Shown here in pieces: positions 5,112 to 59,168 of a DNA stretch of 64,000 nucleotides. The stretch lies in assembly GCF_014199215.1 (NCBI RefSeq), contig NZ_JACIJC010000004.1:248001-312000 (forward strand). Reading direction: 5' to 3'. Under the pieces are notes generated by a model. That model worked only from the letters and a program-made list of their open reading frames with translations, was not told where the DNA came from and did no database searches. The first letter of the stretch is position 1; every line of letters starts with the position of its first letter. The stretch comes from Sphingobium boeckii (GTDB lineage Bacteria; Pseudomonadota; Alphaproteobacteria; Sphingomonadales; Sphingomonadaceae). The translations under genes were made by a program, and so were the position numbers.

Positions 5112-5188
5112 AGTCTCCCGGTGAAGTGCTGCTCCGTTGCACCGGGATCGTGGCAGTCATGTTACGGGGTGCCGTTAAATATGCGTGG

Positions 5189-36571: not shown

Positions 36572-37550
36572 CCGCCCCCAGCCGCCAGCCGCCCCCGGCC
36601 TGATCCACCGGAACGCCGAGCACCGCGCTGACGCGCTGACGCACCCGTTCCCGATCGCCCTCGATCTGGATCACGCCGCTGAAAGGCCGGGCCGCAACGT
36701 CGCGGCCCGCCGTGACGCCGAAGCCCAGATTGCGCGAAAGATCGGCGGCGACGGCGGACAGCGGCGTACCTTCATAGATCAACCGCCCCTGCTTCCATGC
36801 CGCCACGCTGCCCGCGTCGATATTACCCACGCGAATCTGCCCGTCGGCGTCCAGCGCGCGCAACACCTTTCCCGCCGCCAGAGTGACCTTCTCGACCTTG
36901 GGATTATAGATCACCACGCCCTCGGATACGGAGACTTCGGTCATCCCGTCCAGCCGGATGACGTTGAACGCGGTGCCGGCGTCCACCAGGGTCGCCCCGC
37001 CGGTCTCCACCGTGAAGGGGCGGCGGGCGTCATGCACCACGCTGAACAGTGCCTCGCCGCGCTCCAGCCGGGCAAAGCGCGGGTTTTCCCGATCCAGCAT
37101 CAGCCGGGTCGCGCCATTCAGATCAATCCGGCTGCCATCGGCGAGCGTCACGCTCTGCCGCTGTCCAGCCAGCGTCTCCACCGCATAAGGCGACGATCCC
37201 GGCATCAGGCTGGTATAGCTGGCGACGCCCAGTAGCGATGCGGCCATCGCCCAACCGACCATGCTCCGGCGCGTAGCCCAACGCGGACGTTCCGGCTTAT
37301 CGTCATTGGCGGGAATCGGATCGCGCGGCGGTGGCGGCGGTGCCACCGGCTCGGGCTTCACAGGCTCGGTTTCTGCCAGCACATCCGCGGCATCGGCATC
37401 AGCCAGCGCCAGTTCGTCGTAGATGGCGGCGTGCACGGGGTCTTCCTCCAGCCATAGGGTGAAGGCATCCCATCCCGCAAATGCAGGGTCTCGCATACGG
37501 ATGATCCATCCGATGGCGGCTTCCTCGATATTGGCGTGCGGTCTGGACAT
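36558..37550 (-). CDS. fecR: FecR family anti-sigma/sigma regulator
   Basis: A 330-residue inner-membrane signal transducer. The N-terminal cytosolic part (about 1-70) has the DUF4880 motif with WDAFTLWLEEDPVHAAIYDE, a Pro-rich stretch, then one membrane helix (about 104-120; SMVGWAMAASLLGVASYTS). The periplasmic FecR domain (about 130-230) holds GQRQSVTLADGSRIDLNGAT and RGEALFSVVHD. The C-terminal STN-like region (about 270-325) contacts the receptor. The gene lies between the sigma factor and the receptor and overlaps the receptor start by 14 bases, as expected for a FecIR operon. Confidence 0.9.
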   Translation of the reverse strand: MSRPHANIEEAAIGWIIRMRDPAFAGWDAFTLWLEEDPVHAAIYDELALADADAADVLAETEPVKPEPVAPPPPPRDPIPANDDKPERPRWATRRSMVGWAMAASLLGVASYTSLMPGSSPYAVETLAGQRQSVTLADGSRIDLNGATRLMLDRENPRFARLERGEALFSVVHDARRPFTVETGGATLVDAGTAFNVIRLDGMTEVSVSEGVVIYNPKVEKVTLAAGKVLRALDADGQIRVGNIDAGSVAAWKQGRLIYEGTPLSAVAADLSRNLGFGVTAGRDVAARPFSGVIQIEGDRERVRQRVSAVLGVPVDQAGGGWRLGADAAR

Positions 37551-37587
37551 TTACATAAGCCTCAATGTCAGGACGTCGCGGTTCACC

Positions 37588-38103
37588 CTAATCCGCATCG
37601 TCACGTCTCCTGAGATCGATCATCGCACGATACGCCTTTTGCAGATCTTTCTCGACCGCGCTCAGGCTGATCCCCAGATCGGCCGCGATATCGCGCTGGC
37701 TTACGCCTTCGATGCGGTATCGCCGGAACACCGTGGCCGCCCGATCCCCCAGCGCTGCCAGCGCGGCCTCCGCTTCGCGCAGTCGCTCGCGCGCGATGAG
37801 CGCCCGTTCGGCTGAAGGTTCGTCGGACACGCCCGGCACGGTGCCGCCCGCGCTGTCGCTCCAATCCTGATCGCGTCGCTGCGCCCGCACGCTGGATCGA
37901 TGTCGATCGAGCATCAGATTGTTGGCGATGCGATAAAGATAGGACAAAGGCTCGGCGATCGGCCCCGCGTCCGCGCTTGAAGCGCGCAGCCACAATTCCT
38001 GCAGCAAATCCTCAGCCGCATCGCCACCACCCCGCGCGCGCAGGAATCGCAGCAACACATCCCGATTGCCGAGAAACACCGCCTCCAGGCCATTCGCCGT
38101 CAT
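37588..38103 (-). CDS. fecI: ECF sigma factor (FecI-like)
   Basis: An extracytoplasmic-function sigma factor of 171 residues. Region 2 (about 10-75) contains DAAEDLLQELWLRA and LSYLYRIANNLMLDRHR, and region 4 (about 110-165) contains RDIAADLGISLSAVEKDLQK, the -35 recognition helix. The start at 38103 matches FecI length; longer in-frame starts are unlikely. It is first in the fecI-fecR-receptor operon and should direct transcription of the receptor gene, and perhaps of the downstream autotransporter. No target -35/-10 pair could be picked with confidence. Confidence 0.88.
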   Translation of the reverse strand: MTANGLEAVFLGNRDVLLRFLRARGGGDAAEDLLQELWLRASSADAGPIAEPLSYLYRIANNLMLDRHRSSVRAQRRDQDWSDSAGGTVPGVSDEPSAERALIARERLREAEAALAALGDRAATVFRRYRIEGVSQRDIAADLGISLSAVEKDLQKAYRAMIDLRRRDDAD

Positions 38104-38351
38104 CGTCAAGGGTTCGCTCTGCGCGTCACGGCGCGATCCATGCCGCGAATTCCACGGTGCGCGCAAGCGTCATCGCTTGATATGCGGGAACAGACTTGTG
38201 GCGGCGTCATCGCTTTCAGGCACCGCTCTCTCCCCGACAGCGGGGCTCCCGCCTCTCCCCCGGATGGCGGGACGGGGAAGGCAAGTCGCGGCCTTCCCCG
38301 CACCTGCCTCCCGCTTGACAAAGGCGAGGCGATCCGGTGATTTTCCCGCCT

Positions 38352-38883: not shown

Positions 38884-39894
38884 ATGGAATTGACGCGGAC
38901 GACTATCAAGGATGTTTCGGACGCCGCGGGCGTATCGATCAAGACCGTTTCCCGCGTGCTGAACAAGGAAAAATACGTCAGCGATGATACGCGGCTCCGG
39001 GTGGAGGCCGCGGTGGCCAAACTCAATTATCATCCGAGCCTCGCCGCGCGGACGCTGGCGGGCAAGCGCTCGTTCCAGATCGGCCTGATCTACGACAATC
39101 CCAGCCCCTATTACATCTTCAACATGCAGGCGGGCGTGCGCACGCGCTGCCTGGAAGCCGGCTTCCGCATGATCGTGCAGCCGTGCGACGTCAATTCGCC
39201 CACGCTGTTGGACGATATCGCCAGCCTGATCGATCAATCGCATCTGGATGGCGTGATCCTGACCCCACCGGTGGGGGATGTGCCCGAAGCCCTGGCCGCG
39301 CTGGAGCGGCGCGGCATCCCGTTCGTGCGCGTGCAGCCGGGGGCCGATCCCGCCGCCACGTCTTCGACCTTCATCGACAATGTGCAGGCGGCGGACGACA
39401 TGACCGCTCATCTGATCGGCCTGGGGCATCGGCGGATCGGCTTCGTGGCAGGGCATCCCAATTATGCCGTCAGCAGCCAGCGACTCTGCGGCTATCGGCA
39501 GGCGCTGGAGCGCGCTGGACTCGCCTTCGATACCGCGCTGGTGATCGAGGGCCGGTTCGATTTTCAGTCCGGGTCAGAAGCCGCCGAAACCCTGCTCGCG
39601 CTGCCAACGCCCCCCAGCGCGATCTTCGCCAGCAGCGATGATATGGCGGCGGGCGTGCTGGCCACCGCGCACCGGCTGGGCATCTCCGTCCCGCAGTCCC
39701 TCTCGGTCGCGGGGTTCGATGATACCGATCTCGCCCGTTTCGTCTGGCCGCCGCTCACCACGATCCGCCAGCCGACCTTCGATCTGGGCTATGCGGCCGC
39801 GGGCTTGTTGCTGGAATTCGAAGAGGGTGTGGAGGCGAAACAGCTTCCGCATGATCTGATCATCCGCGCCTCCACCGCACCCCCTTCGCTTTAG
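38884..39894 (+). CDS. LacI family transcriptional regulator
   Basis: A 336-residue LacI-type repressor. The N-terminal HTH (TIKDVSDAAGVSIKTVSRVL) and hinge (NYHPSLAARTLAGKRS) are intact, followed by a periplasmic-binding-like ligand domain (about 60-336) with FIDNVQAADDMTAHLIGLGH. LacI hinge helices recognise TGNNANCGNTNNCA-type palindromes, and three such sequences occur at 41017, 42361 and 46973, all next to the sulfoquinovose-type genes. That makes this the probable regulator of the locus, with SQ, SQ-glycerol or a related sugar as inducer. The end overlaps the convergent exporter gene by 4 bases. Confidence 0.9.
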   Translation: MELTRTTIKDVSDAAGVSIKTVSRVLNKEKYVSDDTRLRVEAAVAKLNYHPSLAARTLAGKRSFQIGLIYDNPSPYYIFNMQAGVRTRCLEAGFRMIVQPCDVNSPTLLDDIASLIDQSHLDGVILTPPVGDVPEALAALERRGIPFVRVQPGADPAATSSTFIDNVQAADDMTAHLIGLGHRRIGFVAGHPNYAVSSQRLCGYRQALERAGLAFDTALVIEGRFDFQSGSEAAETLLALPTPPSAIFASSDDMAAGVLATAHRLGISVPQSLSVAGFDDTDLARFVWPPLTTIRQPTFDLGYAAAGLLLEFEEGVEAKQLPHDLIIRASTAPPSL

Positions 39895-40946
39895 CGCTCG
39901 ATCAGGACCGTCGCAGCCAGAGCGCTCAATCCCAGCGCCACCAATGTGGCCGCGATGATCACCAGCAAGGGCTTGGCACCGCTGCCGAGCAGACTGTTCA
40001 TCGGCGAACGGATGCCCGTCGCGGTGACCGCGCAGGCGAGCAGCGCCGCCGTGCCTGTCTGCGCCAGGCTGGCCACCGCCGCTGGAATCACGCCGATCGA
40101 ATTGACCGCGGCCAGCGCGAAGAAGCCGATGACGAACCACGGCAGGGCGGCGACGCCCACACCCTTCACGCCATCCTGCGGAAAGAACATTGCGACGATG
40201 GCCAGCACCGGCGCCAGCAGCGCGACGCGGGCCAGCTTCACGATCGCCGCGGTTTCGCCCGCATATTGGGAAAATGAATAACCCGCGCCCAGCGCCTGCG
40301 CCACATCGTGGATCGCCGCGCCGATCAGGAAGCCGGCGGACACATCGCCCAGGTTCAATTGATGCGCGATGATCGGATAGACGAACATGGCGAGCGAACT
40401 CATCGCCGAGATGCCGACCAGCACGAGCGCGAGTTGCGCCTGCCCGATCCGCCGCTCCCCAAGCAGGGTTGCGATGGCCATCGCCGCCGATGCGCCGCAG
40501 ATGGCCACCGCGCCGCCCGCCAGCGTGCCGAATGCCGCGCTGAAGCCGAACAGGCGGGCGACCAGCACCCCCGTCGCCAGCGTGAGGCCGACGATCAACA
40601 GGATCGCGATCAGCGCCACCGGGCCAAGATCGATCATCTGGCCGAAGGTGACGCGCAGCCCCACCAGCACGATGCCGATCCGCAGCAGCGTGCGCGAAGC
40701 GAAACCGAGGCCGGGCGCCAGTCTGGGGTCCGCATTGAGGAAGTTGAGCGCCAGCCCGATCAGCAGAGCCATCAGCGTCAGCGGTGCGCCATAATGATCT
40801 GAAAGATAGGCGGCGGCGAGCGCGGCGAAGCCGGTGACCATCAGGCCGGGCACATAATCCCGCCAAATAGTATCGGGGGGCGTTTCCAGATCGCCATAAA
40901 GATCCGCCACCGCAGGCAGCGGCCGTGATGTGGCGCGTTCGCTCAT
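39891..40946 (-). CDS. YeiH/PF03601 family putative sulfate or sulfite exporter
   Basis: A 351-residue inner-membrane protein with about 10 helices of the UPF0324 (YeiH) family, annotated in genomes as putative sulfate exporters. Conserved stretches are SDHYGAPLTLMALLIGLALN, LRIGIVLVGLRVTFGQM, FGTLAGGAVAICGASAAMAI and GFLIGAAIHDVAQALGAGYS. The start has GGAGG upstream. It is divergent from the MFS-AKR-monooxygenase operon, and the LacI-type palindrome at 41017 lies between them, 71 bases from its start. Desulfonation of SQ yields sulfite, so export of sulfite or sulfate is a natural job here. The transported ion is inferred, not shown. Confidence 0.85.
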   Translation of the reverse strand: MSERATSRPLPAVADLYGDLETPPDTIWRDYVPGLMVTGFAALAAAYLSDHYGAPLTLMALLIGLALNFLNADPRLAPGLGFASRTLLRIGIVLVGLRVTFGQMIDLGPVALIAILLIVGLTLATGVLVARLFGFSAAFGTLAGGAVAICGASAAMAIATLLGERRIGQAQLALVLVGISAMSSLAMFVYPIIAHQLNLGDVSAGFLIGAAIHDVAQALGAGYSFSQYAGETAAIVKLARVALLAPVLAIVAMFFPQDGVKGVGVAALPWFVIGFFALAAVNSIGVIPAAVASLAQTGTAALLACAVTATGIRSPMNSLLGSGAKPLLVIIAATLVALGLSALAATVLIER

Positions 40947-41059: not shown

Positions 41060-42316
41060 ATGACCAAGGCGCAAATGGCCGATCGCAGGCGTTGGATCAT
41101 CGTGGCGCTGGTGTTCGTCGCGATCGTCCTCAATTATGTTGACCGGCAGATCATCGCGCTTCTGAAGCCCACGCTCCAGGCGGAGTTCGACTGGAGCGAC
41201 CGCGATTATAGCCACATGGCATCCGCCTTCCAATTCGCCGCAGCGCTCGCGTTTCTGGGCACGGGCTGGTTCATCGATCGCGTCGGCCTGCGCTGGGGCT
41301 TTGCGCTGGGCGTGGGCATATGGAGCCTGGCCGGCATGGCCCATGCCTTTGCCACCACCGTCTCCGGCTTCATCGCCTCGCGCGCGATTCTGGGCGCGGC
41401 CGAATCGATCGGCACGCCCGCAGCCGTCAAAACCGCCGCCACCTATTTCACGCCGCGTGAGCGCACGATCGCATTGGGCATCGGCAATACCGCGCCCAAT
41501 GTGGGCGCGATCATCACCCCGCTCGCCATTCCCGCCATCGCCATCGCCTTTGGTTGGCAGGCGACATTCCTGCTCGCAGGCGGCCTTGGCCTGCTCTGGG
41601 TGGTCGCCTGGCTTTCCTTCCGCATTCCGCCAGCCCCCGGCGCGGAAAGCGCGATGCGGCCCGCCAAGATCGCGTGGCGATCCTTGCTCACCGATCGCCG
41701 TCAATGGGCGATCATCGTGGCCAAGGCGCTCACCGATCAAGTGTGGTGGTTCCTGCTCTTCTTCATGCCCGATCTGTTTCACCGGATGTTCGGCCTCAGC
41801 CAGGGCACACTCGGCCTGCCCGTGGCGGCGGTCTACGTGCTCGCCGCATTGGGCGCGATCATCGGCGGCTATCTCCCCGCACGGCTGATGGACCGTGGCC
41901 ACAGCCTGAACTTCTCGCGCAAGATCACGATGCTGATCTATGCGATGATCATCCTGCCCGTGCCTTTGGTGCTGCTGACGGACAATGCCTGGGTGGCCGC
42001 ATTGATCCTCGGCATCGCTCTCTTCGCGCATCAGGGATTTTCGGTGAACGTGTTCGGCATCACCACCGATATCTTCGCCGCACGGATCGTGGGTTCGGCG
42101 ATCGGCATTGGTGCCTTTGCTGGCAATCTGAGCGGCATGGCGATGATCGAATTCGCCGGATGGTCGCTTGAGACCGGCCGGGGCTATGCGCCGATGCTGT
42201 TCGTCTGCGCCGGATCCTATCTGGTGGCGCTGCTTGCGGTCCATCTCGTATTGCCCCGGATCGTCGCGGTGGATGATGGCCCGAAGGATGAGGACGCCAT
42301 CGTCATCGGGCATTGA
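41060..42316 (+). CDS. MFS transporter, probable sulfoquinovose or SQ-glycoside permease
   Basis: A 418-residue major facilitator close to the ExuT/ACS hexuronate and organic anion group. It has 12 membrane segments, with VLNYVDRQIIALLKPTLQ at the first helix and the motif A loop WFIDRVGLRWGFALG; RAILGAAESIGTPAAVKTAA is a typical motif of the group. It is first in an apparent operon with the aldo/keto reductase (43-bp gap) and the monooxygenase. The operator at 41017 lies immediately upstream. Because it precedes an SQ-desulfonating pair, the likely substrate is SQ or SQ-glycerol, an anionic sugar similar in charge to hexuronates. The substrate is inferred. Confidence 0.85.
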   Translation: MTKAQMADRRRWIIVALVFVAIVLNYVDRQIIALLKPTLQAEFDWSDRDYSHMASAFQFAAALAFLGTGWFIDRVGLRWGFALGVGIWSLAGMAHAFATTVSGFIASRAILGAAESIGTPAAVKTAATYFTPRERTIALGIGNTAPNVGAIITPLAIPAIAIAFGWQATFLLAGGLGLLWVVAWLSFRIPPAPGAESAMRPAKIAWRSLLTDRRQWAIIVAKALTDQVWWFLLFFMPDLFHRMFGLSQGTLGLPVAAVYVLAALGAIIGGYLPARLMDRGHSLNFSRKITMLIYAMIILPVPLVLLTDNAWVAALILGIALFAHQGFSVNVFGITTDIFAARIVGSAIGIGAFAGNLSGMAMIEFAGWSLETGRGYAPMLFVCAGSYLVALLAVHLVLPRIVAVDDGPKDEDAIVIGH

Positions 42317-42359: not shown

Positions 42360-43277
42360 ATGACAGCGATGTCAGAGCTTCCCGCCCCCCTCGCCTCCCA
42401 GCCGCTCGGCAAGAGCGGCATCACCGTCAGCCCCATCGCCTGGGGCATGTGGCGCTTCGCCGGGGACGATGTCCGCGCGGCGCGCGCAAAGGTGGAGGCC
42501 GCGTTCGAAGCGGGGGTGACCCTGTTCGATACGGCGGATATTTACGGGCCTGATAATGGCGAGCCGTTCGGCGCGTCCGAATTGCTGCTGGGCCGCGTGC
42601 TCGCCGAAGCGCCGTCGCTACGCGACAGGATGGTGCTGGCCACCAAGGGCGGCATCGTGATGGGCACGCCCTATGAGTCCAGCGCGGCTTATCTGACCAG
42701 TGCGATCGACGCCTCGCTGACCCGCATGGGCGTAGAGCGTGTGGAATTGTGGCAGATCCACCGGCCCGATATGCTGACCCATCCGCAGGAAGCCGCGCGC
42801 GCACTGGAAGATGCGCATAAGGCCGGCAAGATCGCCGCGATCGGCGTTTCCAACCACACCGTATCGCAGACCGCGGCGCTGGCGACCTATCTGACGATCC
42901 CGATTGCCAGCCATCAGCCCGAATTTTCCGCGTTGAAGCTGAATCCGCTTAGCGACGGCGTGATGGATCAGGCCATGGCCGAAGATATGGCGGTGCTCGC
43001 CTGGTCTCCGCTGGGTGGCGGCCGGCTCGCCGCGCCTGCAGACGAACGCAGCAAGGCTGTGGCCGCGCTGCTCGATGCGAAGGCGGCCGCTTACGAGGTC
43101 TCTCGCACCGCGGCTGCCTATAGCTGGATCATGGCGCACCCTGCCCGCCCGATCCCGATCGTGGGCACGCAGAATCCGGACCGCATCCGCGAGATACCGC
43201 AGGCCACAAAACCGCGCTGGACCCGCGCCGATTGGTATGCGGTGCTCCAAGCATCGATGGGAGAGAGTTTGCCATGA
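42360..43277 (+). CDS. Aldo/keto reductase, probable 6-oxo-glucose reductase (SmoB-like)
   Basis: A 305-residue NADPH-type aldo/keto reductase. The catalytic tetrad is complete: Asp57 and Tyr62 (FDTADIYG), Lys96 (VLATKGG) and His134 (WQIHRPD). C-terminal cofactor residues appear in IPIVGTQNPDRI. Length and N-terminus fit the AKR11-like group. Its stop overlaps the start of the monooxygenase gene (ATGA). In Agrobacterium the SMO pathway uses this pair: SmoC converts sulfoquinovose to 6-oxo-glucose and sulfite, and SmoB reduces 6-oxo-glucose to glucose. The same order here, with a sulfoquinovosidase nearby, makes that role likely. A LacI-type site overlaps its start codon. Confidence 0.85.
   Translation: MTAMSELPAPLASQPLGKSGITVSPIAWGMWRFAGDDVRAARAKVEAAFEAGVTLFDTADIYGPDNGEPFGASELLLGRVLAEAPSLRDRMVLATKGGIVMGTPYESSAAYLTSAIDASLTRMGVERVELWQIHRPDMLTHPQEAARALEDAHKAGKIAAIGVSNHTVSQTAALATYLTIPIASHQPEFSALKLNPLSDGVMDQAMAEDMAVLAWSPLGGGRLAAPADERSKAVAALLDAKAAAYEVSRTAAAYSWIMAHPARPIPIVGTQNPDRIREIPQATKPRWTRADWYAVLQASMGESLP
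42361..42374. promoter_or_regulatory. LacI-type operator 2, overlapping the reductase start
   Basis: TGACAGCGATGTCA fits the same 14-base LacI pattern as sites 1 and 3 and begins on the second base of the reductase start codon. Binding there could block transcription or internal initiation. A chance match inside coding sequence cannot be excluded. Confidence 0.45.
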
Positions 43278-44341
43278 CGAAAGCCCCTTGCGAAATAAGC
43301 TGGTTTTCCGCGCTATGCGATGACGATTACGAGTTTCTGGGCGTGCCCGATGACAAGCTCAAATCGAGCTGGGAGCATTGCCGCGATATCGTGATGCAGG
43401 CCGAAAGCGGCGGCTTTGACAATATCCTGCTGCCTTCCGGCTATGCGCTGGGCATCGACACCACCGCCTTCGCCGCGGCCATCGCACCCATGCTCAAGCG
43501 GATGCGTCTGCTGATGGCAGTGCGCATCGGCGAAACCTGGCCGCCGCAGCTTGCGCGCCAGATCGCGACGATCGATCGGTTGCTGGGTGGCCGCCTGACG
43601 GTCAACATCATCTCGTCCGAAATGCCCGGCGAAACGCTCGGCTCCGCGCCGCGCTATGCGCGCACGTTCGAAGCGATGCAGATCCTCAAGACCATGCTGA
43701 ACGGCGAAAGCCTGGATCATGACGGCGAATTCTGGAAGCTAAAGCTCGATCCGCCGCGCGTCGGCACGGTTTCTGGCAAGGCACCCTTGCTCTATTTCGG
43801 CGGGCTTTCCCCTGATGCGCGGGAAGCCGCCGCCAAGGGCTGCGACGTCTATCTGATGTGGCCGGACAAGGAAGAGACCGTCCGCGAGATCATCGCGGAC
43901 ATGACCGCGCGTGCTGCGAAACACGGCCGCACGCTGAAATTCGGCTATCGCGCGCATGTCGTGGTGCGCGACACCGAGACCGAAGCGCGGACCGCGGCCG
44001 AGCGCTTGCTTTCCAAGCTGGACGCGCAGACGGGCGCGGCGATCAAGGCGAAATCGCTGGATTCGACCTCCGTCGGTGTCAATGCGCAGGTGGCGCTGCG
44101 CGAAAGCGCGTCGGATGATGGTTATGCCGAGGCTAATCTATGGACCGGCATCGGCCGCGCCCGCTCCGGCTGCGGCGCTGCGGTCGTGGGCGATCCCGAT
44201 CAGGTGCTGGCGAAGCTGGAGCGCTATCGCGACATGGGGATCGATGCGTTTATTTTGTCGGGCTATCCTCATGCAGCGGAAGCCGATCTGTTCGCCCGGC
44301 ATGTGCTGCCGAAGATCGAGCATGGGCCTTTGGTGATCTGA
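43274..44341 (+). CDS. FMNH2-dependent sulfonate monooxygenase, probable sulfoquinovose monooxygenase (SmoC-like)
   Basis: A 355-residue flavin-dependent luciferase-like monooxygenase of the alkanesulfonate (SsuD) group. Recognisable family segments are NILLPSGYALGIDTTAFAAA, ARQIATIDRLLGGRLTVNII, YFGGLSPDAREAAAKGCDVY (cofactor phosphate region) and IGRARSGCGAAVVGDPDQVL. The N-terminal SWFSALCDDDYEFLGVPD and HCRDIVMQAESGGFDNI match SmoC-type SQ monooxygenases as I recall them. It would cleave SQ to 6-oxo-glucose and sulfite, using O2 and FMNH2. It is translationally coupled to the AKR. No flavin reductase is adjacent, so FMNH2 must come from elsewhere. Specificity for SQ is inferred from context. 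Confidence 0.85.
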   Translation: MTKAPCEISWFSALCDDDYEFLGVPDDKLKSSWEHCRDIVMQAESGGFDNILLPSGYALGIDTTAFAAAIAPMLKRMRLLMAVRIGETWPPQLARQIATIDRLLGGRLTVNIISSEMPGETLGSAPRYARTFEAMQILKTMLNGESLDHDGEFWKLKLDPPRVGTVSGKAPLLYFGGLSPDAREAAAKGCDVYLMWPDKEETVREIIADMTARAAKHGRTLKFGYRAHVVVRDTETEARTAAERLLSKLDAQTGAAIKAKSLDSTSVGVNAQVALRESASDDGYAEANLWTGIGRARSGCGAAVVGDPDQVLAKLERYRDMGIDAFILSGYPHAAEADLFARHVLPKIEHGPLVI

Positions 44342-44353
44342 TTGGCCCCGAAG

Positions 44354-44425
44354 CCGTTTGTCCCGAGCGAAGTCGAGGGACGTTGGTCGTTACACCACGT
44401 CCCCGACTTCGCTCGGGACAAACGG
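44354..44425. repeat. GTTTGTCCCGAGC inverted repeat, near-perfect copy
   Basis: The left arm, CCGTTTGTCCCGAGCGAAGT plus CGAGGGACGT (44354-44383), pairs with the right arm ACGTCCCCGACTTCGCTCGG plus GACAAACGG (44397-44425), with a short loop. It separates the convergent monooxygenase and dehydrogenase genes and can form the 3' hairpin of both. Confidence 0.85.
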
Positions 44426-44431: not shown

Positions 44432-45595
44432 TTACCGCCAGACCTGCGCATACAATTCCGCAATTTCCGCCGCATCCGGCACGCGCGGATTATTGCCCGG
44501 TGATCCCGACGCCAGCGCCTGTTCGCACATCAGCGGCACCAGCGCGTCCCACCGGCCCGCATTGATCCCCCAGGCCGACGGCCCTGGCACTTCGAGATCC
44601 CGGTTAAGCGCGGCGAGTTCATCGAGCAGCCGCGCGACCGCCGCCTGATCGCCTTCGGCTTCAGGCGCGATCTGCATCGCGCGCGCACAATCGGCATAGC
44701 GATGCAGAGCGGCAGGCGCAGACCATGCGGTGATCGCCGGGAGCAGCATCGCATTGGACAGGCCGTGCGGCACATGGAAATGCGCGCCGATCGGGCGGCT
44801 CATCCCATGCACCAGCGCGACCGAACTGTTCGAAAAGGCGATGCCCGCCTGCGTGGCACCCAGCATCATCGCTTCACGCGCCAGAAGATCGCCCGGATCG
44901 GCACAGACGCGGCGGAGATTGGGGGCGATGGCCTTCATCGCCAGCAATGCCATGCCATCGCTGAACGGATTGGCGCGCTTCGAGACATAGGCCTCGATCG
45001 CGTGGGTCAGCGAATCGATGCCGGTGTCCGCGGTCAGGCGGCGCGGTTTGGTGAGGGTGAGTTCATAATCGACCAGCGCCGCCACGGGAAGATAGGCCAG
45101 ACCCGCGCACAGCATCTTCTCGTCGGTCGTCTCGTCGGTGATGATCGTGAAGCGCGTCGCATCCGATCCCGTCCCTGCCGTGGTCGGGATGGCGATGATC
45201 GGCAGGCCGGGGGCATCCTGCACATGCGGCGTCTTATAATCGGCCATCGCGCCGCCATGCGCGCCCAGCATCGCAATGGCCTTGGCGCTGTCGAGCGGAC
45301 TGCCGCCGCCGAAACCGACCACGCAATCATGCGCGCCCGCCAGCAGAAAAGCGACGCCCGCATCAATCGAGGTGACCGTGGGATCGGGCACGGTATCGGC
45401 AAAGACGCGGCTTTCGATTCCGGCCGCCCGCAGATCCTCCGCCAGCCGATCGGCCAACCCCTGCCCCGCCAGATAGCTGTCGGTCACGATCAGCGGGCGG
45501 GACAGGCCGAGCATCGCCAGAACCTCCGGCAATTGCCGTGAAGCGCCGCCGCCGATGCGCATGATCCGCGGCAAGGCGATATTCGAAATGCTCAA
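44432..45595 (-). CDS. Iron-containing alcohol dehydrogenase
   Basis: A group III Fe-type alcohol dehydrogenase of 387 residues. The NAD-binding GFGGGSPLDSAKAIAML, IPTTAGTGSDATRFTII and the metal site (DSLTHAIEAYVSKRANPFSD and GMSRPIGAHFHVPHGLSNAM, with conserved His residues) are intact. The start is TTG at 45593-45595, with AGGAG 8 bases upstream, overlapping the MFS stop codon (TTGA); no ATG lies nearby. It is second in an operon with the MFS carrier. It could oxidise or reduce a C3 or C6 aldehyde or alcohol, such as a sulfonated or glycerol-derived aldehyde. The substrate is unknown. Confidence 0.87.
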   Translation of the reverse strand: MSISNIALPRIMRIGGGASRQLPEVLAMLGLSRPLIVTDSYLAGQGLADRLAEDLRAAGIESRVFADTVPDPTVTSIDAGVAFLLAGAHDCVVGFGGGSPLDSAKAIAMLGAHGGAMADYKTPHVQDAPGLPIIAIPTTAGTGSDATRFTIITDETTDEKMLCAGLAYLPVAALVDYELTLTKPRRLTADTGIDSLTHAIEAYVSKRANPFSDGMALLAMKAIAPNLRRVCADPGDLLAREAMMLGATQAGIAFSNSSVALVHGMSRPIGAHFHVPHGLSNAMLLPAITAWSAPAALHRYADCARAMQIAPEAEGDQAAVARLLDELAALNRDLEVPGPSAWGINAGRWDALVPLMCEQALASGSPGNNPRVPDAAEIAELYAQVWR

Positions 45596-46926
45596 CTCAC
45601 CATCTCCTCGCGGATCGACGACCGCGCCATCCAGAACAGCGCGGACGCCAGCGCGCCGAACAGGATAAACAACATCAGCGACCAACGCACCCCCTCCGCC
45701 GCGCCAAAGCCCATCGGCCCGCTGATCAGATCGCTGACGGCCCCCACGCCCAGCGGCCCGAGGCCCAGCCCGATGAGGTTGATGAGGAACAGCAACACCG
45801 CCGTGGCGGTGGCGCGCGTTTCGGGGCGGACCAGCCCCTGCACCGCGGCATAGCCGGGGCCGTACCACAGCGTGTTCAGGATCGGCGGGAAGGCGAAGAG
45901 GATGAGCGCGGTCACCGCCGAATCCGCGAGCAGCCCGAAGATATAGAAAGGGATGCCCAGCAAGGTGGAGACGGCAGGGATGGACACATAGGCGCGCAGA
46001 TCCTTCGCGCCGAACCGGTCCGCCAGATAGCCGCCCATATAGGTGCCGACCGCCCCGGTCAGGCCCAATACGATGCCCAATGTGATGCCGAGGAAACCTG
46101 TGAGCCCGAGGCCGAAATCATCGGCCAGCAGCGTGAGTTCGGCGGCGTGATTGCGAAAGAAGAAGGGCGCGAGAAAGGCGGCCGCGCCATAGCCGATGAA
46201 CGCCTTGATCGCAGCGGCGAAAGCGATCAGCCAGAAGGTACGCTTGCTGCGGATTTCGGCAAAAGCCTGCTTCAGGCTGGGGCGCGCGGCGCGGCGGGCG
46301 GCGAGATCGGCGGCGAGCTTGCTGCGCGGCTCCCGAAGCGTGGTCCAGGCGACAATCGCCATGATCACGCCCGGCGCGCCGGCCACGAGAAAGGCCATGC
46401 GCCAGCCATAGGCATCGGCGATCACGCCCCCCAGCGCCATGCCGATCAATCCGCCGATCGGTGTGCCAAGCGCATAAAAAGCGAGCGCAGAGGCGCGCTT
46501 TTCGCGGGGCGTATAATCGCTGATGAGCGAATGCGCGGGCGGCGTGCAGCCCGCTTCGCCGATGCCGACGCCCACACGGCAGAGAACGAGTTGCACGAAA
46601 TTCTGCGCAAAGCCGCAGGCAATGGTAAACAGACTCCACGCGCCCGCCGCCGCCGCGATGATCCGCGGCCGGTTGCCCGTTTCGGCCACACGCGCGATCG
46701 GGATGCCCAGCACGGTGTAGAATAGCGCAAAGGCCAGGCCCGTCATCAGCCCCAATTGCCAGTCCGCCAGATGGAGGTCGTTTTTGATCGGCTCGGCCAG
46801 GATCGCGACGATCTGGCGATCGAGAAAGTTCAGGATATAGATCAACAGCAGCACGCTGAGCGCATAGCGGCGATAGCCGGGCGAGACCGGGGACACCGCC
46901 GGTGCGGTCGGGCTGCGCTCACTCAT
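45592..46926 (-). CDS. MFS transporter (spinster-like)
   Basis: A 444-residue MFS carrier with 12 helices. Signature pieces are ILNFLDRQIVAILAEPIKND, the GEAGCTPPAHSLISDYTPRE loop (typical of the spinster/ACS-like group seen in sphingomonads) and GTYMGGYLADRFGAKDL. The start at 46926 has AGGAG upstream; a start at 46956 is possible. It is upstream of and overlaps the iron-type dehydrogenase gene. The divergent TIM-barrel gene shares a 71-bp spacer with the LacI-type operator at 46973, so it probably belongs to the same regulon. Substrate unknown; a sugar acid or sulfonate is likely. Confidence 0.83.
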   Translation of the reverse strand: MSERSPTAPAVSPVSPGYRRYALSVLLLIYILNFLDRQIVAILAEPIKNDLHLADWQLGLMTGLAFALFYTVLGIPIARVAETGNRPRIIAAAAGAWSLFTIACGFAQNFVQLVLCRVGVGIGEAGCTPPAHSLISDYTPREKRASALAFYALGTPIGGLIGMALGGVIADAYGWRMAFLVAGAPGVIMAIVAWTTLREPRSKLAADLAARRAARPSLKQAFAEIRSKRTFWLIAFAAAIKAFIGYGAAAFLAPFFFRNHAAELTLLADDFGLGLTGFLGITLGIVLGLTGAVGTYMGGYLADRFGAKDLRAYVSIPAVSTLLGIPFYIFGLLADSAVTALILFAFPPILNTLWYGPGYAAVQGLVRPETRATATAVLLFLINLIGLGLGPLGVGAVSDLISGPMGFGAAEGVRWSLMLFILFGALASALFWMARSSIREEMVS

Positions 46927-46972
46927 TCCTGCTCTCCTGTGACGATTGACATCCACCCTGCTGCAGCCTTTA

Positions 46973-46986
46973 TGGCAGCGTTGTCA
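46973..46986. promoter_or_regulatory. LacI-type operator 3
   Basis: TGGCAGCGTTGTCA fits the same pattern as sites 1 and 2. It lies between the divergent MFS and TIM-barrel genes, 11 bases before the TIM-barrel start and 46 bases from the MFS start, so bound LacI could control both. Confidence 0.65.
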
Positions 46987-46997
46987 GAGAGGATGTT

Positions 46998-47831
46998 ATG
47001 GCGCGCTTGCTGGTTTTGCAGTCTGTCTGGGGTCTCGACAAATGCCAAGGGTTCGACATCGAACATGATCTGGATGCGGCGCTGGAACGGGTGATCGCGG
47101 CGGGTTTCGATGGCGTGGGGGTGAATATCGCGCGGGTGGCGCGGACGGCAACCGTCGCGCGGGTGATGAATGCGCGCGGGCTGGCCTGGGAAGGTCAGGT
47201 GCTGGCGCATGACGCCCCGCAACTCGCCGCCTATATCGCCGAAGCGCACCGGCTGGGTGCCCATCATCTGAACGTGCAGGTGGCCGGGCCGGTGCCGCAC
47301 CTGTCCGATGCGCTCATGCTGATAGACAGTCTGATCCCACTCGCGCAAACCGCGCCACTGCCGGTGTGGTTCGAAACGCATCGTGGCCGCCTGACCAATG
47401 ATCTGCTGTTCACGCTGCGGATGCTGGCGGCACGGCCGGGTTTGCGGCTCACCGGCGATCTTTCGCATTATCCCGTGGCGGGCGAGATGGAATTGCCGCT
47501 GCGCCCTGATCAACTGGCTGCGATCGAGACGATCCTCAAGCATTGCCACAATTTTCACGGGCGCGTGTCCACCACGCATCAGGTGCAGGTGGCGCTCGTA
47601 TCGCCGCAGCATCAGGGATGGCTGGATCAGCATAAGGCATGGTGGCGGCGCGGATTCGAATTGTGGCTCGCCCAGGCCGGCGCGGAGGATGCGCTGACCT
47701 TCATGTGCGAACTCGGCCCACCGCCTTATGCGATCACCGCGCCCGATGGCACCGAACTGAGCGACCGCTGGGATGAGGCGCAAAGGATGCGCGATATCGT
47801 GATAGGGCTGTGGGACGAGGTGAATGGCTGA
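46998..47831 (+). CDS. TIM-barrel sugar isomerase/epimerase-like protein
   Basis: A 277-residue protein with the xylose isomerase-like TIM barrel (AP endonuclease 2 family, PF01261). Visible family features are repeated strand-helix units: AGFDGVGVNIARVARTATVA, LGAHHLNVQVAGPVPHLSDA, VWFETHRGRLTNDL with a probable metal-binding Glu, and LTGDLSHYPVAG with Asp/His ligands. Trp residues near the end (WRRGFELWLAQ) may shape the pocket. The GAGAGG before ATG is a ribosome site. The LacI-type operator lies directly upstream, so it belongs to the same regulon as the SQ genes. An isomerase or epimerase of an SQ-related sugar or C3 intermediate is likely; the substrate is not known. Confidence 0.78.
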   Translation: MARLLVLQSVWGLDKCQGFDIEHDLDAALERVIAAGFDGVGVNIARVARTATVARVMNARGLAWEGQVLAHDAPQLAAYIAEAHRLGAHHLNVQVAGPVPHLSDALMLIDSLIPLAQTAPLPVWFETHRGRLTNDLLFTLRMLAARPGLRLTGDLSHYPVAGEMELPLRPDQLAAIETILKHCHNFHGRVSTTHQVQVALVSPQHQGWLDQHKAWWRRGFELWLAQAGAEDALTFMCELGPPPYAITAPDGTELSDRWDEAQRMRDIVIGLWDEVNG

Positions 47832-47833
47832 CA

Positions 47834-49249
47834 TCAGGCTTGGACGGTGATCGCGGCGGACCATCGGGCGAAGGCGTGATCCGCCGCATCGCGGCTGATC
47901 GCGGGCGTGAAGTCCGCATCATAGCGCGCGAGTGCGGGAAGGTCGCTCTCCGCGATCAGGCCCGCCCCCAACCCCGCCGCGATGGCCGCGCCATAAGCCG
48001 TGCCTTCGCGCACGGCATGGCGCCGCACGGGGCGCTGGAGCATATCGGCCTGAATCTGCAAAAAGATATCGCTCGCCGCCATCCCGCCATCCACCGGCAG
48101 GGCGTCCGGCACCGGCAGACTCGCCGCGATCAAATCCGCAATCTCGCGGATGCGGCAGGCGATGCCCGTCAGCGCGCCGCGCGCAAGATGCGCCGGGCTG
48201 GTCGAGAAACTGAGGCCGGAGATCAGGCCGCGATCGTTGAACCGGCCATGCGGCGTGCCCAGCCCCTGCAACGATGGCCGCACCTGGACTCCCCCAGCAT
48301 CGGGAACCGAGCGCGCCGCTGACTCCAGCGCGGCGGGAGTGTCGAACAGGCCGATCGGGCCGCAGAGCCAGTCGACGAAGCTGCCCGCGCTGATCACCAT
48401 GCCCTCGATGCAATAATGTGCCTCACCGGCGATGGTGGCGAGCGCTTGGGCGGGCATGGAAGCATCCGGCGAGAATGGCGCGCCGCCCGCGTTCGCCATC
48501 AGCACGGCGGAGGTGCCATAGGTGGCCTTCCATGCCCCGCGCCGTAGGGCATCATGCGCCACCATCCCCGCCTGCTGATCCGCCATGATGGCGCAGATCG
48601 GAACGCCGTCGGTCGTTTCGGCAATCGCACCCCAGCTATCGGTGAGCCGCGGGAAGAGCGTTTCGGGGAGCGATTGATAGGCGAGCAATCCGGCGTTCCA
48701 GCCCGCACCGCGGTCATAATCCATATAGCCGCTGAGCCACGCGCAGGAAGAGTCGGTGACATGCGCCGCGCCGCCGCTCAACCGGAAGACCAGCCAGGAA
48801 TCGAGCGTGCCCCAGCGCAGGCTTTCCAACGGACGCCCCGCCAGCGCGATCGCCGCAGGCAGCTTGGCCGATGGCACCTGCGGCCAGGAAGCAAAGCCCG
48901 CGGCGCGCAGATCCTTATAGACGTTCATCCCGCGCAGGTCGCTCCAGATCAGGATCGGACAGACGGGTTCGCCGATGGCGCGATCCCAGAGCACAACGCT
49001 GGCGCGCTGGGTGGTGACGCCGATCGCAGCGACATCGGCCATGCTCCGCCCCGCCGCCGCCAGTGCACCCGCGATCACCGCACGGCATGTGTCCCACACC
49101 GCCGCGCCGTCCTGCTCCACCAGCCCGGCGCCGGGATAGCGCGTCTCGATCCCGCATTTGTCCATGCCCAGCACCCGCCCCGCCGGATCGACCAGCATGG
49201 CGCGGGCGCCGGTGGTGCCCGCATCCAGCGCGAGCAGCAGCTCAGGCAT
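47834..49249 (-). CDS. FGGY family carbohydrate kinase, glycerol kinase-like
   Basis: A 471-residue sugar or glycerol kinase of the FGGY family. The N-terminal ATPase fold reads LLALDAGTTGARAMLVDPAG; the central GATSAVLMANAGG-type region and the C-terminal ALPVDGGMAASDIFLQIQAD (phosphate-binding) are characteristic. It is about 30 residues shorter than E. coli GlpK. It is third in an operon glpD-like, AGPS-like, kinase, and overlaps the AGPS-like gene by 8 bases. Since the operon contains a GlpD-like dehydrogenase, glycerol is the natural substrate, and glycerol is a product when sulfoquinovosidase cuts SQ-glycerol. Confidence 0.85.
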   Translation of the reverse strand: MPELLLALDAGTTGARAMLVDPAGRVLGMDKCGIETRYPGAGLVEQDGAAVWDTCRAVIAGALAAAGRSMADVAAIGVTTQRASVVLWDRAIGEPVCPILIWSDLRGMNVYKDLRAAGFASWPQVPSAKLPAAIALAGRPLESLRWGTLDSWLVFRLSGGAAHVTDSSCAWLSGYMDYDRGAGWNAGLLAYQSLPETLFPRLTDSWGAIAETTDGVPICAIMADQQAGMVAHDALRRGAWKATYGTSAVLMANAGGAPFSPDASMPAQALATIAGEAHYCIEGMVISAGSFVDWLCGPIGLFDTPAALESAARSVPDAGGVQVRPSLQGLGTPHGRFNDRGLISGLSFSTSPAHLARGALTGIACRIREIADLIAASLPVPDALPVDGGMAASDIFLQIQADMLQRPVRRHAVREGTAYGAAIAAGLGAGLIAESDLPALARYDADFTPAISRDAADHAFARWSAAITVQA

Positions 49250-50636
49250 CGGGGATCAGATTGCCCGGATTCATGATGCCATGGGGATCGAGTGCGGCCT
49301 TGATCGTGCGGAGAAGAGCGACGCCGTTCGCACCCAGATCATGTTGCAGATAGGGTTTGCGCAGCCGCCCCGCGCCATGATGATGCGCCACCCCGCCGCC
49401 ATGCTTCGCCGTCGCCTCCATGATCGCGTGCCAGCAGGCGAAATAGGCAGGCTCCATCTTCGCCTTATCCTCGAAAGTAGCGGCGAAGCTGAAATAGAGA
49501 TTGATACCGGAGCGATAGACATGGGAGCTGTGCGCCGAAGCATTGACCACGCCCGGCACCGCATTGAGCGCCGCGATAGCATCGGCATAGATCGCGCCGA
49601 TCTGGCTCCATGTGCCGGAAATCTCCACGGTATCGGCGATATAGCCGCGCTCGAACATGTCGCGCCAGGTCGGCACATGATTGCGCCGTTCGATCCAGTC
49701 CTGCGCGGCTTTGGGATCGCCCGGCTCAAGCCCAGTGAGTGCCGCCATCGCCGCGATTTCGGCCTCGACCCGCGCCTGCGGGCCTTCATGCACCATCAGC
49801 AGCATCGCCTGGCCATCGCGCTCATGATCGCGAAACAGGCGGCGGACCTCACGGCCGTCATATTGGCGCATCACCGGTGGCCGCCAATCGGCGCGGATGA
49901 TGCGGCGCTGCGCCTCGAAACCCGCCTCCATATCGGGCGCATAGAAGATGCTGTAGCCGCGATATTCGGGCTTCGCACGGATCGAGAAGGTGACGCCCGT
50001 GATCACGCCCATCGTGCCTTCCGCACCCATCAGCAGATGGCGCAGATCAGGCCCGGCGGCGGCGCGGACGGCCTTGCCCAGCGTGACGATCTCACCATTG
50101 GGCAACACCGCCTCGATCGAATGGATGATATCCTCCACATTGCCATAAGCCGTGGAGAATTGCCCCGATGCCCGCGTGGCGACCCAGCCGCCGACGCTGC
50201 TGATCCCGATCGATTGCGGCCAATGGCCGATCGTCAGACCGAGCGCGGCGACCGCCTCCTCCGCCTCCAGCCCATTCAGCCCGGCGTCGAAACTGGCGAG
50301 CAGATTGCGATCATCGATGAAGCGCACCGATTTCATCGCGCTCATATCGAGCAGGATCGATTCCGGGGTCGGCTCGATCCCGCCGCACACGCCACTGCCC
50401 AGACCGAATGGGATGAGCGGCACACGATGTTCGTTCGCGAGCAACACGATCCGGCGCACGTCCTCCACCGAGCAGGGCTGCACCACCCAGCCGGGGCCGG
50501 GCACGGCCTCCCCGCGCCAGTCTCGCAGATGCTTCACCGCCCATTGATCGAACCGCCGTGCATTGAGCGCGGCTGCATCAGACGCCACCTGCTCCGCGCC
50601 GATCGCCGCCGCCAGCATTTCGCCGAATCTCGTCAT
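49242..50636 (-). CDS. FAD-binding oxidase related to alkyldihydroxyacetonephosphate synthase
   Basis: A 464-residue VAO-type flavoprotein. The FAD phosphate loop (PFGLGSGVCGGIEPTPES) and second FAD segment (GISSVGGWVATRASGQFS) are clear. The C-terminal GGGVAHHHGAGRLRKPYL is the triple-His motif of alkylglycerone-phosphate synthase (AGPS), which makes ether lipids from acyl-DHAP in eukaryotes. Related bacterial enzymes act as lactate, glycolate or glycerol-phosphate type dehydrogenases. It overlaps glpD by 4 bases and the kinase by 8. A role in C3 phosphate or C3 sulfonate oxidation is inferred from position. Confidence 0.83.
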   Translation of the reverse strand: MTRFGEMLAAAIGAEQVASDAAALNARRFDQWAVKHLRDWRGEAVPGPGWVVQPCSVEDVRRIVLLANEHRVPLIPFGLGSGVCGGIEPTPESILLDMSAMKSVRFIDDRNLLASFDAGLNGLEAEEAVAALGLTIGHWPQSIGISSVGGWVATRASGQFSTAYGNVEDIIHSIEAVLPNGEIVTLGKAVRAAAGPDLRHLLMGAEGTMGVITGVTFSIRAKPEYRGYSIFYAPDMEAGFEAQRRIIRADWRPPVMRQYDGREVRRLFRDHERDGQAMLLMVHEGPQARVEAEIAAMAALTGLEPGDPKAAQDWIERRNHVPTWRDMFERGYIADTVEISGTWSQIGAIYADAIAALNAVPGVVNASAHSSHVYRSGINLYFSFAATFEDKAKMEPAYFACWHAIMEATAKHGGGVAHHHGAGRLRKPYLQHDLGANGVALLRTIKAALDPHGIMNPGNLIPDA

Positions 50637-52120
50637 CCCGTCTCTCCCGATCCGTCCGCGAGCACGCGGCGGCTGTCTTTTTCCAGTGTTTGGCAGTGCG
50701 CGATCTGGGCTGTGCGCTCTGCCGCATCCCATCCCAGCAGATCGCCCATCACGTCCGTCGCCGGTGCGAGCACGGCCAGTCCGGCGGCGTCATCAAACCA
50801 CGCCCGCCCGCTGCGGCGGACCCAATAATCCTCCAGCGTGACCGCGCCTTCATGGATCACCGCGCGGCGCGCCTCTGAAGCAACATCATCCGCCGCTTCA
50901 TCCAGTGGCAAGGGGATATCGGCTGTGGCGCAGGGCTTCGCCGTGACGCCAAGCCGCTCGACCACCAGATCGACGACACGCTCCGCCATCGCGCGATAGG
51001 CGCTCAACTTGCCGCCCGCGATCGAGATCATGCCCGATGGCGAAGTCCAGATTTCATCCTTGCGCGACACTTCATTCGCCTTCTTGCCCGGCTGCGCGAT
51101 CAGCGGACGGACGCCCGACCAGAGCGAGACGATGTCATTATCCGTCAGCGGTGCGATATCGAGCGCGGCTTCGGTGGCGCGCAGCAGATAATCCACATCG
51201 CTGCGTTCGGGCGCGGGCCAGTAATCAGCAGTGTCATGAAAAACATCGGTCGTCCCGAGATAGGTGAAGCGCCCGCGCGGCACCGCGAAGATCGTCCTTT
51301 TGTCCGCCGCGCGCAGCAGCACCGTCGCATTGACCGGCAGGCCCGCGCGATCGAGCACAAGATGGATGCCGCGGCTGAGCGACAGGCGCGTGTCGCTTTC
51401 GCCGGTCTCCAGCGCGCGCACTCGATCCACCCAGGCCCCGGCCGCATTCACCACCAGTTTTGCCCGCACCTCCGCCCCGAGATTTTCGCCGGGCGATGTG
51501 GAGCGCACGAGAAGTCCGTCAGGGGTCAGTCCAGCCGCCGCGGCATAGTTCAACACCACCGCACCCGCCGCCTGCGCTGCGCGGATGTTTGCCAGCACCA
51601 GCCGGGCATCGTCCGTCAGAAATTCAGGGTAAATCACCGCGCCATTCAATTTGTCGGTGCGCATCAAAGGCTCACGCGCGGCCAAATCCTTGACGCCGAT
51701 CACCTCATGACGCTCGTCATCGGGTACATTGCCCAGCTTCTCGAAGGTCCACAGGCCGGCGCGCAGCTTGGTCACCATCGCCAGCGATGTGGTGGGAATG
51801 AGGAACGGGCATATCTGCGCCAGATGCGGCGCGATGCGGCGGAGAATCTGGCGCTCCGAAGCCGCCTCCTTGACCAATGCCACATCGCCCTGCGCCAGAT
51901 AGCGCAGGCCGCCATGGATCATCTTGGAGCTGCGGCTGCTCGTGCCGCTCGCATAATCCCGCGCCTCGACCAGCACGACCGACAGCCCGCGTAATGCCGC
52001 ATCCCGCGCGATCCCGGCACCGGTGATGCCGCCGCCGATCACCGCGACATCGAACACGCTCTGTTCCAGCGCGGTCAAGACGGCGCTGCGGTCGCGGGAA
52101 TCGATATTGGCGCTGCTCAT
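50633..52120 (-). CDS. glpD: GlpD-like FAD-dependent glycerol-3-phosphate dehydrogenase
   Basis: A 495-residue membrane-associated flavoenzyme of the GlpD family, which passes electrons from glycerol-3-phosphate to the quinone pool and yields DHAP. FAD motif: DVAVIGGGITGAGIARDAAL; then ARDYASGTSSRSSKMIHGGL and RYLAQGDVALVKEA, which are GlpD hallmarks. C-terminal region: IAGGKLSAYRAMAERVVDLV. The start at 52120 begins MSSANIDSRDRSAVL; a longer in-frame ATG at 52201 would enter the divergent LysR gene. It is the first gene of a three-gene operon. The LysR regulator 68 bp away on the other strand probably controls it. A glpD duplicate elsewhere would suggest a specialised role. Confidence 0.9.
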   Translation of the reverse strand: MSSANIDSRDRSAVLTALEQSVFDVAVIGGGITGAGIARDAALRGLSVVLVEARDYASGTSSRSSKMIHGGLRYLAQGDVALVKEAASERQILRRIAPHLAQICPFLIPTTSLAMVTKLRAGLWTFEKLGNVPDDERHEVIGVKDLAAREPLMRTDKLNGAVIYPEFLTDDARLVLANIRAAQAAGAVVLNYAAAAGLTPDGLLVRSTSPGENLGAEVRAKLVVNAAGAWVDRVRALETGESDTRLSLSRGIHLVLDRAGLPVNATVLLRAADKRTIFAVPRGRFTYLGTTDVFHDTADYWPAPERSDVDYLLRATEAALDIAPLTDNDIVSLWSGVRPLIAQPGKKANEVSRKDEIWTSPSGMISIAGGKLSAYRAMAERVVDLVVERLGVTAKPCATADIPLPLDEAADDVASEARRAVIHEGAVTLEDYWVRRSGRAWFDDAAGLAVLAPATDVMGDLLGWDAAERTAQIAHCQTLEKDSRRVLADGSGETG

Positions 52121-52188
52121 AGGCCAAACGCTATGAGAATGAACAAGCATATGGTAATGCGAAATAGGAATGAAGTGGTGAGCAGCGC

Positions 52189-56724: not shown

Positions 56725-56738
56725 GGTTGATCTCCGGT

Positions 56739-59102: not shown

Positions 59103-59168
59103 TTCTTCCCCTCCGATATTTTCCAGCAGATCTTCGTCCGCTTGGAGCGGGCGCGACAGGCGCCCTAA

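Follow-up and report, generated by a model that had tools for sequence, protein, structure and literature searches.

The pair of genes and its question

Can a bacterium take up the sulfonated sugar sulfoquinovose (SQ), expel its sulfur and keep all its carbon with the genes of one short locus? The question is raised by a window of 64,000 nucleotides from Sphingobium boeckii (contig 4, positions 248001-312000, of a 4.03 Mb genome), in which an aldo/keto reductase (AKR) gene is directly followed by the gene of a flavin-dependent monooxygenase. A reading made from the sequence alone, termed here the sequence-only reading, had assigned the two products to the oxidative desulfonation of SQ. Our comparisons lead us to hold, with high confidence, that the two products form the catalytic core of the sulfoquinovose monooxygenase pathway (sulfo-SMO, the same as sulfo-ASMO). 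It is best read as the Novosphingobium (SquD/SquF) form of this known pathway.

The two genes lie 43 bp behind the end of a gene coding for a carrier of the MFS family. The expected coupling of an AKR with an SsuD-type flavin monooxygenase behind such a carrier is confirmed: the open reading frames (ORFs) are open, the Pfam matches are far beyond chance (Table 1) and the two genes are conserved together. The monooxygenase ORF spans 43232-44341 and codes for 369 amino acids from a TTG codon, or for 355 if the start is the ATG at 43274; counted from this ATG, the two genes overlap by 4 bp. The AKR carries the full tetrad announced for it (D57, Y62, K96, H134).

Of 199 same-family genomes, 50 (its own included) contain a match to the monooxygenase at E 1e-60 or better, and 40 of these 50 provided the same-family stretches compared here. 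A scan of public genomes gave at least 578 relatives, of which 80 were kept, 79-91% identical and mostly from Sphingomonas, Sphingopyxis, Caulobacter, Phenylobacterium and uncultured Alphaproteobacteria. Neighbour counts in the 40 stretches and the 80 relatives record any tblastn match at 1e-20, weak paralogues included. The AKR gene is directly upstream of the monooxygenase gene and on the same strand in 114 of the 120 loci (38/40 same-family stretches, 76/80 public-genome relatives), and an AKR match occurs in 77 of the 80 relatives. Five same-family stretches repeat loci of the 80, as detected by comparison of the middle 200 bases only; their removal leaves 115 distinct loci, 110 of which have this arrangement.

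The monooxygenase is nearer to sulfoquinovose enzymes than to SsuD

Among solved structures, the monooxygenase gives its highest bit scores to 7oh2 (398) and 7olf (392), whose titles name monooxygenases for oxidative desulfurization of sulfoquinovose, followed by MsuD (7jv3, 227), 1nqk (208) and SsuD (1m41, 208). It has 53.9% and 54.2% amino acid sequence identity to the two SQ enzymes versus 37.3-37.9% to three SsuD/MsuD-type rows. A nearer match to SsuD, the result set beforehand as refuting an SQ enzyme, did not appear. The AlphaFold2 model (mean pLDDT 81, with low confidence at residues 15-30) retrieves chains of 7oh2 and 7olf at Foldseek ranks 1-4 (E 6e-37 to 8e-36), MsuD chains following from 1e-30 with weaker values after. 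The three SsuD/MsuD-type rows form a clade of their own (100/100) in a tree of 24 chosen rows. Plasmid homologues of the SmoC-like group range from 76% down to 45.7% identity, the next being at 38.8% (among 40 of 902 records).

The SsuD/MsuD alkanesulfonate monooxygenases resemble the window enzyme in fold, flavin chemistry and sulfonate-site columns. The only inspected columns that differ between the SQ and SsuD types are the RSGCG cysteine and a position that we take to be Cys54: the window enzyme has Leu where the three SsuD/MsuD-type rows carry this Cys, and its RSGCG-loop Cys is common with SmoC. The monooxygenase could be an alkanesulfonate enzyme of the SsuD/MsuD type used for sulfur scavenging, the sulfoquinovosidase standing nearby by accident. 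Its match to the SsuD model TIGR03565 and the shared sulfonate-site columns favour such an enzyme. We nevertheless judge it very improbable: the match reaches 254 bits, far under the cut-off of 518, SQ enzymes are 54% identical and those of the SsuD/MsuD type only 37-38%, the AKR gene is directly upstream in nearly all distinct loci, and the neighbouring proteins given Pfam scans include no match to an ABC transporter family. Identity with SsuD itself is ruled out by the sub-cut-off model score, the bit scores, the identities and the Foldseek ranks.

Some features of the enzyme pull against its assignment to SQ. The columns W, R, H, R, Y, H, which we take to be sulfonate-binding, are identical in SmoC and SsuD and are thus no proof of SQ as the substrate. 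TM-scores fail to distinguish the two kinds (0.84-0.85 for SQ enzymes, with 7oh2 at 0.84, versus up to 0.88 for MsuD), so that the order of the Foldseek matches depends chiefly on scores that take sequence into account. The join of the window clade to the Agrobacterium clade is unsettled in the tree, where 10 of 21 inner branches are open, and a second protein of the genome (contig 4, 87076-88068) gives 183 bits to the SsuD model.

More remote monooxygenases, 45-47% identical to that of the window, are found on Bacteroidota plasmids of Spirosoma and Emticicia (L157 8962-10092, L193 4947-6122). Leu takes the place of their last active-site His, and their stretches have no annotated AKR; they possibly act on a different substrate.

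The reductase is assigned by position

The AKR is led in phmmer by 7bbz (148 versus 122 bits), which we take to be Agrobacterium SmoB and which is 79.3% identical to the AKR beside the monooxygenase of Rhizobium SL42. Identity is 34.1% to 7bbz versus 32.0% to 4r9o, a putative reductase with scores similar to those of E. coli YdhF. A tree of 18 chosen rows, for which long branches were flagged, groups 7bbz and 4r9o together. Neither identity nor tree sets the window reductase distinctly nearer to SmoB than to YdhF-like AKRs; its about equal distance from 7bbz and 4r9o leaves a close kinship to SmoB unsupported. The proposal of a SmoB/SmoC-like pair consequently holds for the monooxygenase, nearer to SQ enzymes, and fails for the reductase as far as kinship is concerned.

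Position is strong evidence for the role of the reductase, which we infer from its context and from the precedent of SquF in Novosphingobium. The AKR shares 57.9% identity with its counterpart in the cluster of N. pentaromativorans, where AKR and monooxygenase are paired in the Novosphingobium manner. The portion of PMC13372026 available defines a sulfo-SMO cluster by SmoB and SmoC being encoded together; the window monooxygenase agrees with this definition, and the reductase agrees by position, not by close SmoB kinship. On the other side of the balance, an AKR match is missing from 5 of the 120 loci and lies 1.6 kb off in one more, and no AKR is annotated beside the monooxygenase of a Rhizobium homologue (L155).

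The AKR might instead use another aldehyde or run in reverse, 6-dehydroglucose being handled elsewhere, for instance by the iron-containing alcohol dehydrogenase (Fe-ADH) encoded next to the monooxygenase. This alternative, which partly overlaps the preferred assignment, fits the equidistance of the AKR from presumed SmoB and 4r9o. It also fits two loci (L126, L146) in which the Fe-ADH gene alone is kept between the monooxygenase and GH31 genes, at the place taken in the window by the inserted unit described below. Fe-ADH matches, which adjoin the monooxygenase, occur in only 10/80 public-genome relatives, far from the count for the AKR, and we consider the alternative unlikely. The probabilities behind our wording of the alternatives overlap with that of the sulfo-SMO assignment and do not sum to one.

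Sulfoquinovosidase, reduced flavin and fate of sulfite

The sulfoquinovosidase announced about 9 kb away is present: a GH31 gene lies 8.7 kb downstream of the monooxygenase gene. Its product is a close sulfoquinovosidase homologue (of its matches 5ohy and 5aed, the latter carries the name Sulfoquinovosidase), and all key residues are kept (E335, R348, W351, Y557, D454 and D521 in the numbering of the 729-aa ORF). We take these to be the nucleophile, the acid/base and the sulfonate-binding E/R/W/Y, and likewise presume which of them define the family.

It is very unlikely, in our estimate, that the pair acts on another sulfosugar or SQ derivative, such as sulfofucose or intact SQ-glycerol, rather than on free SQ. 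The 54% identity to the crystallised SQ enzymes leaves room for this, as does the distribution of the glycosidase: a GH31 match within the available flank is found in only 23/80 public-genome relatives, some loci being short, and is missing from the flank of the other 57. SQ is favoured by the window and eight unit-carrying relatives, in which the pair is accompanied by a GH31 sulfoquinovosidase gene (cut by the locus end in all eight relatives), and by a Novosphingobium plasmid that couples the pair to an annotated alpha-glucosidase. A Sphingobium yanoikuyae plasmid (L196 8510-16696) counts among the observations unfavourable to SQ: the AKR-monooxygenase pair is accompanied there by a phytanoyl-CoA-dioxygenase-family gene, a sulfatase gene and a second LLM monooxygenase gene, with no GH31 annotated in this stretch.

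The window yielded no flavin reductase, and the one PF01613 match and seven scattered PF03358 matches of the genome lie elsewhere. Three SmoA-type queries reach at best E 0.027 in the window and give no hit at 1e-5 in the 120 related loci, where PF03358 proteins were not sought; as a control, they find the PF01613 protein of the genome on contig 10 at 2e-29 to 3e-20. The gene of this protein adjoins a P450 gene, and its best models are HsaB and FerA, with scores under their cut-offs. The cluster of N. aromaticivorans is likewise described, in the part of PMC9594981 available, as having no flavin reductase gene, other reductases being presumed to serve. The genome also encodes two PF00174 proteins, possibly sulfite oxidases.

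The sequence-only reading of the pathway as a whole therefore stands, with two amendments: the reductase is named by role only, and the flavin reductase is outside the cluster. The comparisons establish the order and families of the genes, the catalytic residues, the nearest relatives and the conservation of the pair; which substrate is used, in which direction, with which electron donor, and how sulfite leaves are inferred, and the proposed course is as follows. The GH31 enzyme would release SQ from its glycosides. The monooxygenase, with reduced flavin supplied by a flavin reductase encoded elsewhere and with O2, would cleave the C-S bond of SQ to give sulfite and 6-dehydroglucose. The AKR would then reduce 6-dehydroglucose to glucose with NAD(P)H, all six carbons being retained, and sulfite would probably exit through the YeiH-type protein.

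Comparison with known systems

According to the excerpt of PMC9594981, Liu et al. (2021) showed the pathway biochemically in N. aromaticivorans, with SquD and SquF, and the excerpt of PMC12890257 names the same two model organisms, N. aromaticivorans and Agrobacterium tumefaciens. According to the available part of PMC13372026, carbon of labelled SQ was incorporated by Novosphingobium sequences, for which the sulfo-SMO pathway was predicted from the closest reference genomes. The N. aromaticivorans cluster is, like ours, a sphingomonad cluster found via its sulfoquinovosidase, with an SsuD-like SQ monooxygenase, a PF00248 reductase and no flavin reductase. The window differs from it by the inserted glycerol-type unit and the Fe-ADH gene; the likening to SquD and SquF is by description, not by sequence. 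The row of N. pentaromativorans has annotated alpha-glucosidase (taken as GH31), LacI, AKR, monooxygenase, GlpD and GlpK genes, with a TonB receptor gene before them.

The Smo pathway of Agrobacterium tumefaciens (SmoA, SmoB, SmoC), reportedly described by Sharma et al. in 2022, resembles that of the window in the monooxygenase (54% identity to the crystallised enzyme), in a very close GH31 sulfoquinovosidase and in the pairing of AKR and monooxygenase. It differs in the reductase (34% to 7bbz, the presumed SmoB) and in its ABC transporter, the window having MFS and TonB genes, and no SmoA-like gene was found in the window. Gene order differs in the SL42 cluster, which runs monooxygenase, AKR, flavin reductase, whereas the AKR gene precedes the monooxygenase gene in the window. 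A search of the open-access literature for sulfoquinovose together with Sphingopyxis found nothing. A member of the same order is already known from the literature to use the pathway, of which the pair is a further, well-supported example.

Surrounding genes

The genes around the pair are given in Table 1. The LacI-family regulator has a match in 54/80 public-genome relatives. The YeiH-type protein scores 125 bits with TIGR00698, under the cut-off of 232.6; its gene has a match in 38/80 relatives, and the family is also annotated in two SmoC-type stretches (L156, L196). The acyl-CoA ligase ORF, ending at 55081, overlaps the start of the GH31 gene by 11 bp and the TonB-dependent receptor gene stands just before it, an arrangement suggestive of the import and metabolism of acylated fragments of sulfolipids. 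An 84% homologue of this receptor is encoded beside GH31 in L126 and L146; receptor and first MFS transporter matches at about 40% identity may be paralogues. The inverted repeat behind the monooxygenase gene is possibly a terminator or a dispersed repeat. Genes for an ECF sigma factor, a FecR protein and a TonB receptor, an ordinary signalling set, lie just upstream of the locus (34160-38166).

Table 1. Features of the locus, in window coordinates
Feature	Position	Strand	Support and remarks
LacI-family regulator, probable local SQ-responsive regulator	38884-39894	+	PF00356/PF13377
YeiH-type putative sulfate exporter family protein, candidate sulfite exporter	39891-40946	-	PF03601, E 2.6e-54
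MFS transporter, candidate SQ or SQ-glycerol importer	41060-42316	+	PF07690 MFS_1, E 3.1e-46
Aldo/keto reductase, probable SmoB/SquF role	42360-43277	+	305 aa; PF00248 Aldo_ket_red, E 2.5e-50
FMNH2-dependent SQ monooxygenase, SmoC/SquD type	43274-44341	+	355 aa; PF00296 Bac_luciferase, E 2.3e-48
Inverted repeat, long, near-perfect	44356-44423		Between convergent monooxygenase and Fe-ADH genes; read by eye
Iron-containing alcohol dehydrogenase (Fe-ADH)	44432-45595	-	PF00465/PF25137
Second MFS transporter (MFS2), unit	45592-46956	-	PF07690; 81-87% in 8 public-genome relatives
TIM-barrel protein, sugar phosphate isomerase/epimerase-like, unit	46998-47831	+	73-86% in 8 relatives
FGGY kinase, glycerol-kinase-like, altered glycerol pocket, unit	47834-49249	-	PF00370/PF02782
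Alkyl-DHAP-synthase (AGPS)-like flavoprotein, unit	49242-50732	-	Best PDB matches 2uuu (189 bits), 4bby (183 bits)
GlpD-like FAD dehydrogenase, unit	50633-52201	-	PF01266/PF16901; 3da1 glycerol-3-phosphate dehydrogenase, 316 bits
LysR regulator, unit	52189-53136	+	PF03466/PF00126
GH31 sulfoquinovosidase	53082-55091	-	Start re-set to ATG 55091; 5ohy 951 bits, 5aed 705 bits
Long-chain acyl-CoA ligase	55081-56748	-	PRK06018, 796 bits (cut-off 766)
TonB-dependent receptor, candidate for outer-membrane uptake of sulfolipid fragments	56790-59174	-	PF00593/PF07715

An inserted glycerol-type unit

The more unusual part of the locus is the stretch between the monooxygenase and the sulfoquinovosidase genes (44432-53136), which codes for the Fe-ADH and then for a unit of six proteins: MFS2, the TIM-barrel protein, the FGGY kinase, the alkyl-dihydroxyacetone-phosphate-synthase (AGPS)-like flavoprotein, the GlpD-like dehydrogenase and the LysR regulator. 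The unit occupies the same place in 8/80 public-genome relatives, LysR being found in 6 of those 8, which overturns the idea of a chance insertion in one genome; Sphingomonas colocasiae (L073) is a named locus with this arrangement. Above 65% identity are 8 of the 11 FGGY matches and 8 of the 13 GlpD-like matches; 2 of the 10 MFS2 matches are at 33%. The 40 same-family stretches have no match to Fe-ADH, MFS2, AGPS-like protein or LysR, and only 34-39% matches to the FGGY and GlpD-like proteins. In the closest of them (L033, monooxygenase 89% identical), GH31 follows the monooxygenase directly. The AGPS-like protein is found in 1 of the 199 same-family genomes, its own, and at 1e-60 in 7 of 385 genomes of the class, its own included.

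One of these genomes (L182) has the GlpD-like, AGPS-like, FGGY, LysR and TIM genes joined to a GH31 gene (product 66% identical to that of the window), an acyl-CoA ligase gene and a TonB receptor gene, with no match for monooxygenase or reductase in its 20-kb stretch. The other five AGPS-like stretches (one of 12 kb) have no GH31 match. A Novosphingobium plasmid carries the unit apart from the pair: about 185 kb separate it from the plasmid's own SQ monooxygenase gene. This separation, together with the two arrangements with GH31, makes the unit a separable module linked to a sulfoquinovosidase gene in two ways. In the majority of the compared loci the pair has no such unit next to it, which suggests that SQ degradation does not require it. 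The L182 stretch also has, beside the unit, genes for a fatty-acid-hydroxylase-family protein (PF04116, 5673-6722), whose superfamily presumably includes alkylglycerol monooxygenase, and for an aldehyde dehydrogenase (3721-5121), in line with ether-lipid use.

The AGPS-like flavoprotein has its best PDB matches among AGPS proteins, the best other match giving 119 bits. It keeps the positions Tyr578, Arg419 and HHH615-617, whose roles we assume from AGPS, and has Ser at the Thr309 position (4bby numbering). It differs from AGPS in being bacterial, shorter and encoded in an operon with a kinase and a GlpD-like dehydrogenase, where it is probably catabolic. Eleven chosen rows were compared for the FGGY kinase. 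The motifs QRET and PYFS, which we take to be the glycerol pocket, are kept in both canonical GlpK rows and read QRAS and PQVP in the window protein and six relatives, in which Ala replaces Glu and Gln replaces Tyr; the QRET Arg and the Asp-Gln pair are retained. L182 has QRSS and PQVP, and L186 has QRTS, no PYFS and a different substitute for the Tyr. An ordinary glycerol kinase is thereby rejected: the pocket motifs are gone and the genome has a separate canonical GlpK (contig 4, 226217-227662; 581 bits, cut-off 498).

The gene at the position of the TIM-barrel protein is annotated sugar phosphate isomerase/epimerase in L197, and the model (mean pLDDT 80) gives a weak UlaE fold match (14% identity, TM 0.58). 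The antisense ORF 46923-47864 on the minus strand was discarded as a gene, its conservation being 46-56% versus 73-86% for 46998-47831.

The altered kinase pocket and the kept AGPS positions fit phosphorylation of a 1-O-substituted glycerol, oxidation of its C2 and flavin-assisted removal of the substituent; judged by these motifs, the unit may break down 1-O-substituted glycerols. We put forward only tentatively, as a rather doubtful extension, that the locus could be a sulfolipid-processing island joining the SMO pathway to a second, undescribed route for the glycerol part of the lipid. The opened-pocket kinase would phosphorylate a 1-O-substituted glycerol (acyl-, alkyl- or sulfoquinovosyl-glycerol) and the GlpD-like enzyme would oxidise C2 of the product. 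The AGPS-like flavoprotein, as a lyase or hydrolase, would expel the substituent to leave dihydroxyacetone phosphate, and the acyl-CoA ligase would take any fatty acid. No description of such a bacterial AGPS catabolic operon was found in open-access literature listings and abstract openings, where its absence is unproven.

Significance

The AKR-monooxygenase pair very probably lets the bacterium remove sulfite from the plant sulfur-sugar SQ and convert the rest to glucose. The reductase of the pathway appears to come in two deeply diverged forms, and surveys for SmoB by strict homology could miss one of them. If the inserted unit functions in the way put forward, it would be a new way to dismantle glycerolipids in bacteria.

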